Of a stretch of DNA of 19,651 nt, positions 131 through 7,791 are shown one piece after another; the first letter of the stretch is position 1, and each line of letters opens with the position of its first letter. Source of the stretch: Nitrospinota bacterium (lineage in GTDB: Bacteria; Nitrospinota; Nitrospinia; JACRGO01); contig JACRGO010000153.1 in NCBI GenBank assembly GCA_016212295.1, positions 1 through 19,651 of the forward strand, in the 5' to 3' direction. The position numbers and the translations under genes are program-made. The notes under the pieces are model-generated. The model was given only the letters and a program-made list of their open reading frames with translations, was not told the origin of the DNA and ran no database searches.

Positions 131-826
131 TCACCCTGTTGAAAGAGTTGAGGGAGTTGAACCGTTCGTGGTGTAATATGTATTGGAGCACCCTGAGCCG
201 CCGGAATTGTCCGCGCAGGTAAGCGTTACGGATTGGGCGGTGGAAAAGCCGGCGCCGGAACCGGAAGGTGAAGCAGTTGTGGCCGGGGCTGTTGAGTCAA
301 TGGTATACGTCTCCGTCTTCGCCGTCTCCTGATTTCCCGCGCTGTCCACGCTGAAAAATTTCAAGGTCATGGTGGAGGAGATGGTTATTGGAGTTGTATA
401 AACAGTTGAAAGAGTTGAGGGAGTTGAACCGTTCGTGGTGTAGAAGGTTTTGTAGCACCCGGAGCCGCCGGAATTGTCCGCGCAGGTAAGCGCCACGGAT
501 TGGGCGGATGAAAAATTGCCGCCGGAAGGGGAGGCAGTGGTGGCCGGGGCTGTTGAGTCTATGGTATACGTCTGCGTCTTCACGGATTCCGAATTGCCGG
601 ACTTATCCACGCTGAAATATTTCAATGTGGTTGTGGAGGAGATGGTTATTGGAGTTGTATAAAGAGTTGAAAGAGTTGAGGGAGTTGAGGGAGTTGAACC
701 GTTCGTGGTATAGAAGGTTTTGTAGCACCCGGAACCGCCGGAATTGTCCGCGCAGGTAAGCGTTACGGATTGGGTGGAAGAAAATGTGCTTCCAGCAGGG
801 CTGGCCGTGGTCGTCGGGTCCGTGGT
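131..826 (-). repeat. Three tandem 267-270 bp coding repeats, the last truncated
   Basis: The segment starting ACCGTTCGTGG on the plus strand recurs at 161, 428 and 698, giving unit lengths of 267 and 270 bp. The encoded units start near residues 338, 428 and 516 of the secreted protein. The copy nearest 131 is cut short: similarity to the others stops at about position 137/138. Confidence 0.85.
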
Positions 827-1837
827 ATCGGTGGTGGTAGTTCCGCCGGACGTGCTGCCTCCTGTTGAACCTCCAGTCGAGCCGCCAGTGCTTCCACCAG
901 TACTGCCGCCGGACGAACCACCCGTGCTTCCGCCTGATGTGCCTCCGCTGGTTGAGCCTCCGGTTGTTCCACCCGTTGAACCGCCAGTTGTGGAACCGCC
1001 CGTCGAGCCGCCCGTTGAACCTCCGCCAGTGCTCCCGCCGGACGTGCCGCCTCCAGTATTAGCCTCCTGGGTCACTGTCACATACTTGGACGCTGAGCCG
1101 GACGCCTCCACGCGGATTATCCCGCCCCTGCTTTTGGAAGCGGTGTTAACGGAAAAGGCCACTATAATAGTCCCGGCGTTTGTCCCGCTATCGCCGGAAG
1201 AGATACTCATCCAGTCTCCTCCGCTGCTGACAGCGGCTGTCCAAGTTAAAGTCCCTCCGCCGGTATTGGACACGCTGAAACTGGTGGACGTGGCCCCATA
1301 GCCCACTGACCTCGACTTGGGGGTGACGGACAGCGTGGGAGACCCCGAACCGCCGCCCGCGCCGCCGCTGGTTGAACCGCCCGTCGAGCCGCCTGAACTC
1401 CCCCCGGAGGAGCCGCCGCCCGTTCCTCCGGTTGACCCGCCTGAACTCCCGGACTGCTCAAGGACAAAATTCCTGGCAAGCTCAACGCCCTTATATCTTA
1501 TCGTGTCTCTTGTGGTTTTATAACCTGCCTTGCTTACCGCCACAATGTAGGTGGCCTTTTTTAAAGCCTTGCTGTAAAAACAATAATACCCGTCTTGATT
1601 CGTCTGGGCGGCAAGATTCCTGGAGCCTTGCATCAGTTTTATAGTGGCCTTCTTAACCGCATCCTCGTTTTGGTCCATTACGACCCCTGAAATGCCGCAG
1701 GTATCCGACGCCTGAGGCCCTCCCGTTTCGGATTTCCCCTGGGCGCCGGCCGAAGCGTCCAGAAATAATGGCGGCAAAAACCCGGCCAAAACCAGAATAA
1801 ACATGGAGCATACCAAAAGAAAAACGCCTTTTTTCAT
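131..1837 (-). CDS. Secreted modular protein: carboxypeptidase-regulatory-like, BACON and chitobiase-C-terminal-like repeats
   Basis: A 568-residue exported protein of unknown function. Residues 1-30 are a signal peptide (Lys-Lys, hydrophobic core, Ala-Ser-Ala before a likely cut after 30). Residues 47-127 resemble a carboxypeptidase regulatory-like beta-sandwich, 128-166 are a Gly/Ser linker, and 167-259 fit a BACON domain. Residues 260-336 are a long Gly/Ser/Thr linker. From 338 there are three repeats of about 89 residues like the chitobiase/beta-hexosaminidase C-terminal domain, each with a Cys pair (362/371, 452/461, 541/550) that could form a disulfide. The third repeat breaks off after about 53 residues. 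No membrane anchor or sortase motif is visible. The ATG at 1837 has an AGGAGG site just upstream. The first 259 residues closely match the gene at 2727-4124. A carbohydrate-binding or adhesive surface role is an inference from the domain types. Confidence 0.85.
   Translation of the reverse strand: MKKGVFLLVCSMFILVLAGFLPPLFLDASAGAQGKSETGGPQASDTCGISGVVMDQNEDAVKKATIKLMQGSRNLAAQTNQDGYYCFYSKALKKATYIVAVSKAGYKTTRDTIRYKGVELARNFVLEQSGSSGGSTGGTGGGSSGGSSGGSTGGSTSGGAGGGSGSPTLSVTPKSRSVGYGATSTSFSVSNTGGGTLTWTAAVSSGGDWMSISSGDSGTNAGTIIVAFSVNTASKSRGGIIRVEASGSASKYVTVTQEANTGGGTSGGSTGGGSTGGSTGGSTTGGSTGGTTGGSTSGGTSGGSTGGSSGGSTGGSTGGSTGGSTGGSTSGGTTTTDTTDPTTTASPAGSTFSSTQSVTLTCADNSGGSGCYKTFYTTNGSTPSTPSTLSTLYTTPITISSTTTLKYFSVDKSGNSESVKTQTYTIDSTAPATTASPSGGNFSSAQSVALTCADNSGGSGCYKTFYTTNGSTPSTLSTVYTTPITISSTMTLKFFSVDSAGNQETAKTETYTIDSTAPATTASPSGSGAGFSTAQSVTLTCADNSGGSGCSNTYYTTNGSTPSTLSTG
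830..1060 (-). repeat. Low-complexity Gly/Ser/Thr linker coding repeat
   Basis: This stretch encodes about 77 residues made almost wholly of Gly-Gly-Ser-Thr-type units (residues 260-336), linking the BACON domain to the C-terminal repeats. The codons vary between units. The complementary strand reads as an open Pro/Val-rich frame, which is a by-product. Confidence 0.85.
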
Positions 1838-2726: not shown

Positions 2727-4124
2727 TCACTGCCCATTTCGGACGCACCGGACGCAGCCGTAAGGGCTGTTCGCATAGTCATAGGCGGCGGCGCCAGTTG
2801 AAAAATTGACATAGTATGAATACAAGGAGCCATATACGTCGCTGCCAGCGGAAGTGGACGTCCAATAGCCCAGCGAATAAGCATTCGGGAAAAAGGTTTT
2901 ATCTATTGCAGGGGCGGTACTGCCTTTGATTAAGGTTTTCAGTTCATCAATGGTCGGCAGCCGCCAGTCGGAATAACCGGCAAGGGACAGGGATTTGCAC
3001 ACGCTGAGAGACAAGCTATTGTAATAGTAGTTGTAAGTGCCGGAGGCCACATACCAATTATAAGTTGAAGAATTTTCTCCCTGCTGCCATATTAGCTTCG
3101 TGCTGCTGTCCGATACAGTGCCGTTACCGTTGTTGGTTAAAGAAGAGGTAGCCCCTCCAGAAGTTCCGCCAGTCGATCCTCCAGTGGTTCCACCGGTTGT
3201 GCCGCCGCTGGTTGAACCGCCAGTTGTGCCGCCAGAGCCCCATCCACTTGAATCACCGGTTGATCCACCCGTTGTTCCTCCGCTTGTGGAACCGCCAGTA
3301 GTTCCACCCGTTGATCCTCCGGATGTGCCGCCTCCAGTGGTCCCTCCAGTAGTTCCGCCTGTGTCACCTGAGGTTCCGCCAGTTGACCCTCCTGCCTCCT
3401 GGGTCACTGTCGCATACTTAGGCGTTGCGCCGGACGCCTCCACGCGGATGATCCCGCCCCGGCTTTTGGACGTGGTATTAGCTGAAAAGGCCACGGTAAT
3501 AGTCCCTGCGTTTGTTCCGCTTGAGCCGGAAGAGATGCTCATCCAGTCTCCTCCGCTGCTGACCGTGGCTGTCCAAGCCAGGGTCCCTGTCCCGGTATTG
3601 GTCACGTTAAAACTAGTCGAGGTGGCCCCATAACCCACGGTCCTCGACTTGGGGGTGACGGATAAAGCGGAAGATCCGGAATTTCCCGTCGAGCCGCCGG
3701 AGCTTCCTCCGGTGGAACCGCCCGGACTCCCGGTCCGCTCAAGAACAAAATCCTTGGTAAGCTCAGCGCCGTTGTATTTTATAGAGTCTCTTTTGGTTTT
3801 ATAACCTGCCTTGCTTACTGTCACTATGTAGGTGGCCTTTTTCAATGCCTTGCTGTAAAAACAATAGTAGCCGTCGCTATCCGTCCTGGCGGCAAGGTTC
3901 TTGGCGCCTTGCTTCAGCTTTATCGTGGCCTTCTCAACCGCGTCATCGTTTTGGTCCGTGACGATCCCTGAAATGCCGCATGTATCAGCGCTTGACGCCC
4001 TGGGCGCAACCGCTTGAGACTTCCCCTGGGCGCCGGCCGAGGCGTCCTGAAACAAGGACGGCAAAACCCCGGCCAAAACCAAAATAAACATTGTGAATAC
4101 CAAAAGAAAAACGCTTTTTTTCAT
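2727..4124 (-). CDS. Secreted modular protein: carboxypeptidase-regulatory-like, BACON and DUF1566 (Lcl) domains
   Basis: A 465-residue exported protein. Residues 1-30 are a signal peptide ending Ala-Ser-Ala. About 49-129 fit a carboxypeptidase regulatory-like domain, 152-244 a BACON domain, and 245-326 a Gly/Ser/Thr linker. Residues 328-463 fit DUF1566/Lcl_C: an NGNGTVSD-like opening, Leu-Ile-Trp-Gln, the hallmark GYSDWRLPTIDEL (383-395), Ala-Ile-Asp near 406, a Tyr-Trp-Thr-Ser-Thr strand and a closing Val-Arg-Cys-Val-Arg. Cys 457 and 460 lie close to the end. DUF1566 domains have a C-type-lectin-like fold, so ligand binding at the cell surface is a reasonable guess. The ATG at 4124 has AAGG seven bases upstream. 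An intrinsic terminator at 4143-4186 sits just before it. The first 244 residues are paralogous to the gene at 131-1837. Confidence 0.85.
   Translation of the reverse strand: MKKSVFLLVFTMFILVLAGVLPSLFQDASAGAQGKSQAVAPRASSADTCGISGIVTDQNDDAVEKATIKLKQGAKNLAARTDSDGYYCFYSKALKKATYIVTVSKAGYKTKRDSIKYNGAELTKDFVLERTGSPGGSTGGSSGGSTGNSGSSALSVTPKSRTVGYGATSTSFNVTNTGTGTLAWTATVSSGGDWMSISSGSSGTNAGTITVAFSANTTSKSRGGIIRVEASGATPKYATVTQEAGGSTGGTSGDTGGTTGGTTGGGTSGGSTGGTTGGSTSGGTTGGSTGDSSGWGSGGTTGGSTSGGTTGGTTGGSTGGTSGGATSSLTNNGNGTVSDSSTKLIWQQGENSSTYNWYVASGTYNYYYNSLSLSVCKSLSLAGYSDWRLPTIDELKTLIKGSTAPAIDKTFFPNAYSLGYWTSTSAGSDVYGSLYSYYVNFSTGAAAYDYANSPYGCVRCVRNGQ
3147..3392 (-). repeat. Low-complexity Gly/Ser/Thr linker coding repeat
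   Basis: This encodes about 82 residues of Gly-Gly-Ser/Thr units (residues 245-326) between the BACON and DUF1566 domains. One Trp (296) interrupts the pattern. It is the counterpart of the linker at 830-1060 in the neighbouring paralogue. Confidence 0.8.
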
Positions 4125-4142
4125 GGCTTCGCCTTAATAAAT

Positions 4143-4186
4143 AAAAAAGCCCGTTTGAAGCCTCATACAGGCCTTTCAAACGGGCT
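4143..4186 (-). terminator. Intrinsic terminator between rplQ and the secreted-protein gene
   Basis: Read on the minus strand, AGCCCGTTTGAA pairs perfectly with TTCAAACGGGCT. The stem extends through GGCCT / AGGCT-type pairing around a short loop and is followed by six T. It can end transcription from the ribosomal operon about 250 nt after rplQ, or act inside the leader of the gene starting at 4124. On the plus strand no T-run follows, so it works in one direction. Confidence 0.85.
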
Positions 4187-4294
4187 ATTAACTATCGAAA
4201 ATTCCAAACAAAAGAAAAAGCCAGGAGGAGAGGATACGGTTGGTTCGAGAGTTGGGGAGTACGAGGAAATAATCGCGCCAGTGGAGTAAGTCAT
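4163..4294 (-). other. Possible 43-codon leader ORF
   Basis: An open frame from the ATG at 4294 to a TGA at 4163-4165. It runs through the 5' arm of the terminator and its stop codon falls in the terminator loop. No Shine-Dalgarno sequence precedes the ATG, so translation is doubtful. It is listed because its position would suit translation-coupled attenuation. Confidence 0.15.
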
Positions 4295-4324
4295 GGGTTT
4301 TTCAGGAAAAAATAAACCGCGCCG

Positions 4325-4353
4325 ATGTTACAACTTTCGCGGTTGCTTGTCAA
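4325..4353 (-). promoter_or_regulatory. Sigma-70-type promoter downstream of rplQ
   Basis: On the minus strand a perfect TTGACA (4348-4353) is followed by a 17-nt spacer and TAACAT (4325-4330; four of six bases match TATAAT). It lies between rplQ and the secreted-protein gene and points at the latter. No other promoter of this quality was found in this gap. Confidence 0.6.
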
Positions 4354-7064: not shown

Positions 7065-7439
7065 TTAACCTTCCTTTTTCTTGGCGCCAACTGTTTTTCT
7101 TGGCCCCTTCCTCGTGCGGGCATTCGTGCTGGTCCTTTGGCCGCGAACCGGAAGGCCCCTTTTATGCCTCATTCCCCTGTAACTCCCTGTATCCATAAGG
7201 CGCTTGATGTTGGTGGTCACTTCCCTCCTGAGGTCCCCCTCAACGGTGTACTCCTTTTCAATGATATTTCTTATTTGGGTGACCTCATTATCAGTAAGAT
7301 TCTTGACGCGGATATCCGGAGACAATTTGGCCCGCGCCAAAATGGCCTTTGATGTAGGCCTGCCAATGCCGTAGATATAGGTCAAAGCGACCTCAACCCT
7401 CTTTTCCCTGGGAATATCGATTCCTGCAATTCTTGCCAT
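7065..7439 (-). CDS. rpsM: 30S ribosomal protein S13
   Basis: A 124-residue S13 of the small-subunit head, which contacts the P-site tRNA and forms a bridge to the 50S. The N-terminus [14 protein letters not shown] is typical. The conserved [21 protein letters not shown] segment and the basic tail ([15 protein letters not shown]) are present. The start is set at 7439: AGGAGG lies just upstream, and the longer open frame to 7529 would run into rpmJ in another frame. Confidence 0.97.
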
Positions 7440-7453
7440 TTGGCCTCCTTTTT

Positions 7454-7567
7454 TTATCCTTGCCGTTGCTTGTGTTTGGGATTTGGGCAAATGACGCGGA
7501 GAACCCCTTTCCGCTTGATGACCTTGCATTTTTCACATATTGTCTTAACCGAAGCCCGTACTTTCAT
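7454..7567 (-). CDS. rpmJ: 50S ribosomal protein L36 (zinc form)
   Basis: A 37-residue L36, beginning [14 protein letters not shown] and ending KHKQRQG. Cys11, Cys14, Cys27 and His32 form the usual zinc site. It fits exactly between infA (5 nt upstream) and rpsM (14 nt downstream), its classic place. Confidence 0.96.
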
Positions 7568-7572
7568 AATCC

Positions 7573-7791
7573 TCACTTATACCTGTAAATTATTCTTCCC
7601 CTTGATAGATCATAAGGGGACAATTCCACCTTAACTTTGTCTCCAGCCAAAATACGTATGAAATTCATTCGCATTTTTCCGGAGATGTGGGCCAAAATCC
7701 GGTGGCCGTTTTCCAACTCAACCCTGAACATGGCATTAGGCAGAGGTTCCACCACAATTCCTTCCACTTCGATAGCGTCCTCTTTGGCCAT
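7573..7791 (-). CDS. infA: Translation initiation factor IF-1
   Basis: A 72-residue single S1/OB-fold domain of normal length. It starts [11 protein letters not shown] and keeps the [12 protein letters not shown] and [19 protein letters not shown] strands that bind the 30S A site. The ATG at 7791 follows a 78-nt gap after map, the longest in this part of the cluster, which holds a 32-bp element at 7806-7837. Confidence 0.97.

Follow-up and report, generated by a model that had tools for sequence, protein, structure and literature searches.

Seven copies of a promoter-leader-terminator unit in a Nitrospinota genome as candidate phase-variable attenuators of secreted-protein genes

A leader unit preceding a secreted-protein gene in the stretch of Nitrospinota DNA analysed here (19,651 nt, hereafter the window) is one of seven dispersed copies in the genome, which extends beyond the single copy noted in an earlier interpretation of the window made from its letters (the sequence-only reading). 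A promoter, a leader, a T-rich block and an intrinsic terminator follow one another in the same order in all seven copies, and we put the probability that this unit is a phase-variable, translation-coupled transcription attenuator at about 50%. In the proposed mechanism, a strong promoter would produce a G-poor leader RNA, and ribosomes starting at the leader ATG would read through a slippage-prone repeat, and the number of repeat units would decide which reading frame they are in on arrival at the 3′ block. In the off frame, they would meet a stop codon 28–43 nt before the hairpin, so that the terminator folds and the secreted-protein gene is off, while in the on frames ribosomes would run into the hairpin and prevent its folding, turning the gene on. 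The seven copies would thereby act as independent switches on cell-surface or secreted proteins. Three steps are our inference: ribosomes translate the leader ORF, the repeats change in length, and termination is governed by translation.

The window copy lies on the reverse strand. Its promoter, TTGACA-17-TAACAT, occupies positions 4325–4353 (TTGACA 4353–4348, TAACAT 4330–4325), the leader runs from a predicted transcription start at 4317 to the hairpin (4187–4317; 13% G), and the intrinsic terminator (4137–4186) consists of a hairpin at 4186–4148 followed by a T-rich tail to about 4137. Rechecking the sequence placed the promoter, the one-way terminator and the ATG at 4124 where the sequence-only reading had put them. 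The hairpin segment folds at −27.8 kcal/mol (z = −5.85), with none of 200 shuffled sequences equally stable, and the alignment and covariance model of the family delimit a conserved 3′ block, T-rich stretch plus terminator, at 4134–4222. Between position 4143 and the ATG at 4124 there are 18 nt; the gene that begins there (2727–4124, reverse strand), 23 nt past the hairpin, encodes a 465-aa secreted protein with CarboxypepD_reg, BACON and Lcl_C (DUF1566) domains and a signal peptide judged by eye. The window contains 30 promoter-like matches where shuffles give 20.2 ± 4.3, and the promoter match, taken alone, is weak; it is convincing because an exact TTGACA and a second hexamer agreeing at four to six of six positions, spaced by 16–18 nt, are found in all seven copies. 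A second, paralogous secreted-protein gene in the window (131–1837) has no leader unit, and between the two paralogues, at 2200–2370, lies an inverted pair of CACACCCCGGCCTTCGGCCACCCCTCTCAAGAGGGG-like sequence.

The genome searched was the window's own assembly (3.74 Mb in 237 contigs, 90.5% complete). Judged by RpoA, its nearest named relative is Nitrospinia bacterium OFTM173 (68% identity), which places it in the Nitrospinota. A sequence search with the window stretch returned further copies of the leader unit, and a hairpin-stem pattern allowing up to three mismatches gave exactly seven matches, on contigs C9, C108, C109, C112 (the window), C125, C133 and C147, each matching the 22 outer-stem bases perfectly; near-miss copies were absent from the genome at this tolerance. 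The seven copies, the order of their parts, their repeats and frames, and the neighbouring genes can be read off the assembled sequence. The leaders are 112–237 nt long with 5–13% G, and the T-rich stretch has the near-constant form CTTCCTGACTCTTTCTTTTGTTTTAA, altered in the window. Sequence similar to the inverted pair of the window also occurs 3′ of the C109 copy, and in the C108 copy (C108:883–921) the terminator loop is inverted relative to the other six, as if a palindrome had been flipped by template switching. The sequence-only reading had looked to covarying pairs in related genomes, but the unit was found in its own genome only, and no compensatory changes occur in the hairpin across the seven copies, for which covariation is uninformative because the outer stem is identical in every one. 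Nor do the copies amount to seven independent observations, because they share ancestry.

The genes 5′ of the copies are mutually unrelated and include, as named by inspection, rplQ, a chorismate synthase-like gene, a methyltransferase-like gene and others. This bears on the idea, also raised in the sequence-only reading, that the hairpin is simply the end of the ribosomal protein operon and would then be conserved after rplQ in other genomes. A strong hairpin does stand 3′ of rplQ on the same strand, but six other, unrelated loci carry the unit together with its own promoter, and in the sister genome rplQ is not followed by such a hairpin; we reject this explanation as very improbable, although the hairpin may stop ribosomal transcripts as a side effect. 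The dispersal of the copies also fits a mobile or recombinogenic repeat without regulatory function that happens to carry a promoter and a terminator: a single genome carries seven copies, three lie no more than 1.1 kb from the end of a contig, the C9 and C109 copies have short stretches of downstream flank in common, and the sister genome has none. However, inspection of the aligned copies by eye showed neither terminal inverted repeats in common nor target duplications, similarity among most of them starts near the promoter and stops near the terminator, the ends of the element coincide with these two parts, and five of the seven lie in line with secreted genes. We consider a functionless repeat improbable.

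A secreted-protein gene lies directly 3′ of the unit in these five copies (window, C108, C125, C133 and C147), starting 23–170 nt past the hairpin and with signal peptides recognised by eye. The C109 copy runs up to a contig edge, and the C9 copy has no secreted gene just downstream. The C125 and C147 copies agree in the unit, in the sequence immediately past it and in the gene start CCACCATGTCCAGGCAAAA, while the gene bodies are non-homologous, with CarboxypepD/BACON domains in C125 and FGE-sulfatase domains in C147; such agreement ahead of different gene bodies favours the view that the unit goes with the gene start. A related gene on C131 with the same kind of N-terminus has a plain TTGACT-16-TAGAAT promoter, with neither terminator nor unit. 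The secreted-protein frame of C133 is broken after about 111 aa and resumes in another frame near a T run, either an assembly error or a true frameshift.

The position of these genes also weighs on the reading of the copies as small RNA genes, in which promoter to terminator would form a complete unit of 150–280 nt, the C/U-rich single-stranded leader would pair with Shine-Dalgarno regions elsewhere and the secreted neighbours would be incidental. Such genes would account for a similarity mostly bounded by promoter and terminator, for a G-poor, unstructured leader, for a U-rich stretch before the terminator resembling a small RNA 3′ end and for the C9 copy. They would not account for five copies directly 5′ of, and in line with, secreted genes, or for a unit and gene start kept together in C125 and C147 ahead of different bodies; repeat arrays of very different length would be odd for a small RNA, and the window gene would be left with no room for another ordinary promoter. 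In addition, the Hfq family (PF17209) had no match in the 90% complete genome, which is at odds with an Hfq-dependent small RNA. We hold small RNA genes to be unlikely. The sequence-only reading had proposed that the window gene is expressed only past the terminator trapped between promoter and gene, by way of a riboswitch, a protein or translation-linked attenuation; this proposal, with translation-linked attenuation as a possible route, has gained from six further copies with the same order and from the five that precede secreted genes. A riboswitch with an alternative helix is unsupported, the leaders being low in G and folding no better than shuffles. The covariance search suggested for the window leader yielded no Rfam family at gathering score and nothing convincing at relaxed thresholds, in agreement with the earlier statement that no known riboswitch is recognisable there.

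Translation-coupled attenuation with phase variation draws on the slippage-prone repeats found between the leader ATG and the hairpin, which are (CCAA)25 in C109 (100 nt), (TCAA)11 in C125 and a C10 run in C147, in each case clearly a tandem repeat within the leader ORF whose length is not a multiple of 3 nt. Remnants persist in other copies, with about three units in C108 and C133 (in C133 they sit 3′ of that copy's only leader ATG) and two in the window, where AACCAACC at 4238–4245 on the reverse strand aligns with the place of (CCAA)25, (TCAA)11 or three units elsewhere. A pattern search across the 3.74 Mb genome found no YCAA arrays besides those of C109 and C125, and no other tetranucleotide array of at least four units occurs in a 340 kb sample of the genome; runs of at least ten C occur in about eleven places. 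The repeat lengths come from one metagenome assembly. Support that does not depend on shared ancestry is provided mainly by the presence of these three different kinds of repeat at the corresponding place. In C147 (6957–8642), no stop interrupts the leader frame across the terminator, and it continues in frame into the FGE-sulfatase gene (561 aa), so that the C10 run could, as another option, act as a direct N-terminal fusion switch. The C125 contig also carries heptanucleotide arrays, (TCAGGTT)6 at 7301–7342 and (CCTGACT)4 at 7501–7528.

The leader frames were compared in all copies. The window leader ORF has 43 codons (4163–4294, reverse strand), with its ATG at 4294 (+24) and its TGA at 4165–4163 inside the terminator loop, and its ATG is without a Shine-Dalgarno sequence (duplex −1.8 kcal/mol), confirming the description in the sequence-only reading. 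That reading had set the frame aside for its missing ribosome binding site; the missing site stands, but the ATG position and the downstream repeats across the family make this putatively translated frame the most interesting part of the unit. Six of the seven copies have their first leader ATG between +22 and +30, counted from the predicted start site; in C133 it has been lost, leaving a single leader ATG at +56. In C9, the copy with no adjacent gene, the leader ORF is closed after three codons.

Five copies (C9, C109, C125, C133 and C147) have one frame that stops 28–43 nt before the hairpin, another that stops in the loop and a third that runs through. The far-upstream stop is at −28 in C9, C108, C133 and C147, at −37 in C109 and at −43 in C125; C108, which has stops at both −44 and −28, departs from the arrangement in its other two frames. 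In the assembled sequence, the leader ORF stops before the hairpin in C108 (−28) and C125 (−43), ends in the loop in the window and in C133 (from the ATG at +56), and runs through the hairpin in C109 and C147. This stop-by-frame arrangement is not significant by itself, because about 25% of shuffled sequences show the same and because the copies share ancestry. The window copy has no far-upstream stop left: its three frames end at +21, −8 and −4, in each case inside the hairpin or no more than 8 nt from it, and translation in any of them would cover the hairpin. This copy is accordingly predicted to be fixed on and, having lost both the array and that stop, is probably a locked-on descendant. 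In E. coli, a stop codon a few bp before a hairpin nearly abolishes termination, which is maximal beyond about 30 bp, and terminators can still act when they lie less than 100 bp into a coding region (PMC4824070). The distance from ATG to hairpin, 84–108 nt in four of the five gene-linked copies, counts against the attenuator reading, a gap of about 100 nt being close to the limit that a ribosome trailing the polymerase can cover.

The main doubt on the attenuator reading is that the leader ATGs have no Shine-Dalgarno sequence, none being present in any copy (duplex −1.8 to +3.7 kcal/mol). For the majority of the window's genes the value is about −5 to −11 kcal/mol, though rplV, rplR and adk are also without one. 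This observation favours an attenuator that is non-coding or differently controlled, in which readthrough would be set by a protein, by RNA polymerase pausing at the T-rich block or by leader length, with the repeats tuning an untranslated leader. Repeats in untranslated leaders tune expression in the case of Moraxella uspA2, and in the present family the T-rich block and stem are conserved more strongly than the leader ORF. Against an untranslated leader stand the ATG position between +22 and +30 in six copies and the lack of any alternative helix or Rfam family, and we consider such control unlikely.

Known systems resemble the unit in different respects. The E. coli pyrBI attenuator has a leader ORF of about 44 codons that enters the terminator hairpin, with a T-rich stretch before it and the gene shortly after; it responds to UTP and has a ribosome binding site. 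The window copy, which lacks an array, much resembles this layout, with no link to pyrimidine genes. The proven precedent is found in the pil1 locus of S. gallolyticus, where a pilus is switched by GCAGA repeats that lie within a leader-peptide gene ahead of a terminator, as established with mutants and chloramphenicol, and in pil3, which has the same arrangement (PMC3894217). In pil1, the off-frame stop lies 49 or 39 bp before the hairpin, and isolates stopping at least 28 nt before it keep a low profile (PMC3894217). The Nitrospinota unit shares with these loci the order of promoter, short leader ORF with a frame-shifting tandem repeat, intrinsic terminator and surface-protein gene. At pil1, one frame stops well before the hairpin and the others end adjacent to it or inside; comparable stops occur in C9, C109, C125, C133 and C147, as in about a quarter of shuffled sequences, and have been lost in the window. 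As in the pil1 type, the promoter lies 5′ of the leader ORF, and the terminator lies between the leader ORF and the secreted gene in the five gene-linked copies. The streptococcal system comprises a 5-bp GCAGA repeat at two loci with a clear ribosome binding site and experimental proof, whereas the Nitrospinota unit carries CCAA, TCAA or C10, occurs in seven copies with one terminator type and no Shine-Dalgarno sequence, and is described here from its sequence. Because no leader ATG has a Shine-Dalgarno sequence, we say that the unit works like a pil1-type attenuator, not yet that it is one. A search of open-licence full text for phase variation together with leader peptide, terminator, tandem repeats and attenuation returned only the S. 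gallolyticus paper (PMC3894217), and other examples may exist. In Haemophilus influenzae, many contingency loci at surface-related genes are built on CAAT or CCAA units, repeats that contain no stop in any frame (PMC2651432). The tetranucleotide CCAA is common to these switches and the C109 array, but in H. influenzae the repeat is usually in the gene's own coding frame (PMC2651432) and in the Nitrospinota unit it is in the leader, ahead of the terminator.

A covariance model run against 60 genomes, the unit's own and 59 relatives of the class, gave matches in its own genome only; run against the sister genome alone it gave two weak matches (E about 1), and the stem pattern had no match in species genomes and viral contigs. 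Deep conservation cannot serve as a test of the unit because the sister genome and the 59 genomes of the class are without it. That at least five independent, random switches act here on secreted or surface proteins, with a shared terminator type, repeat-bearing leader ORFs and translation without a Shine-Dalgarno sequence, seems possible but falls somewhat short of an even bet. If so, leader-ORF attenuation by slippage would be a multi-gene system outside the streptococci, and switching by repeat-bearing leader ORF and terminator would have been reached in a second phylum and spread over a gene family. Random variation of the cell surface in uncultured Nitrospinota would also be suggested. 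A promoter-terminator-gene order with no Rfam family could then be spotted by looking for slippage-prone repeats in its sister copies, a rule that can be used to search any genome.

Other sources of variation were noted in the same genome. Lcl_C and FGE-sulfatase domains are frequent targets of diversity-generating retroelements, and a search for such elements gave a single RVT_1 match, on C142, which by inspection looks like a group II intron protein. At C216:49034–49052, a 19-C run (G on the other strand) lies within an open frame of 495 aa, which may be another gene prone to slippage. On C46, one of the long C runs counted above, a C15 run (7763–7777), follows closely on the start codon region of a gene that encodes a secreted protein and has a Shine-Dalgarno sequence of its own, a case that favours the attenuator reading; C14 would give a long open frame and the assembled C15 gives a stop after 21 codons, so that by its sequence this is a classic phase-variable secreted-protein gene, predicted to be off as assembled.
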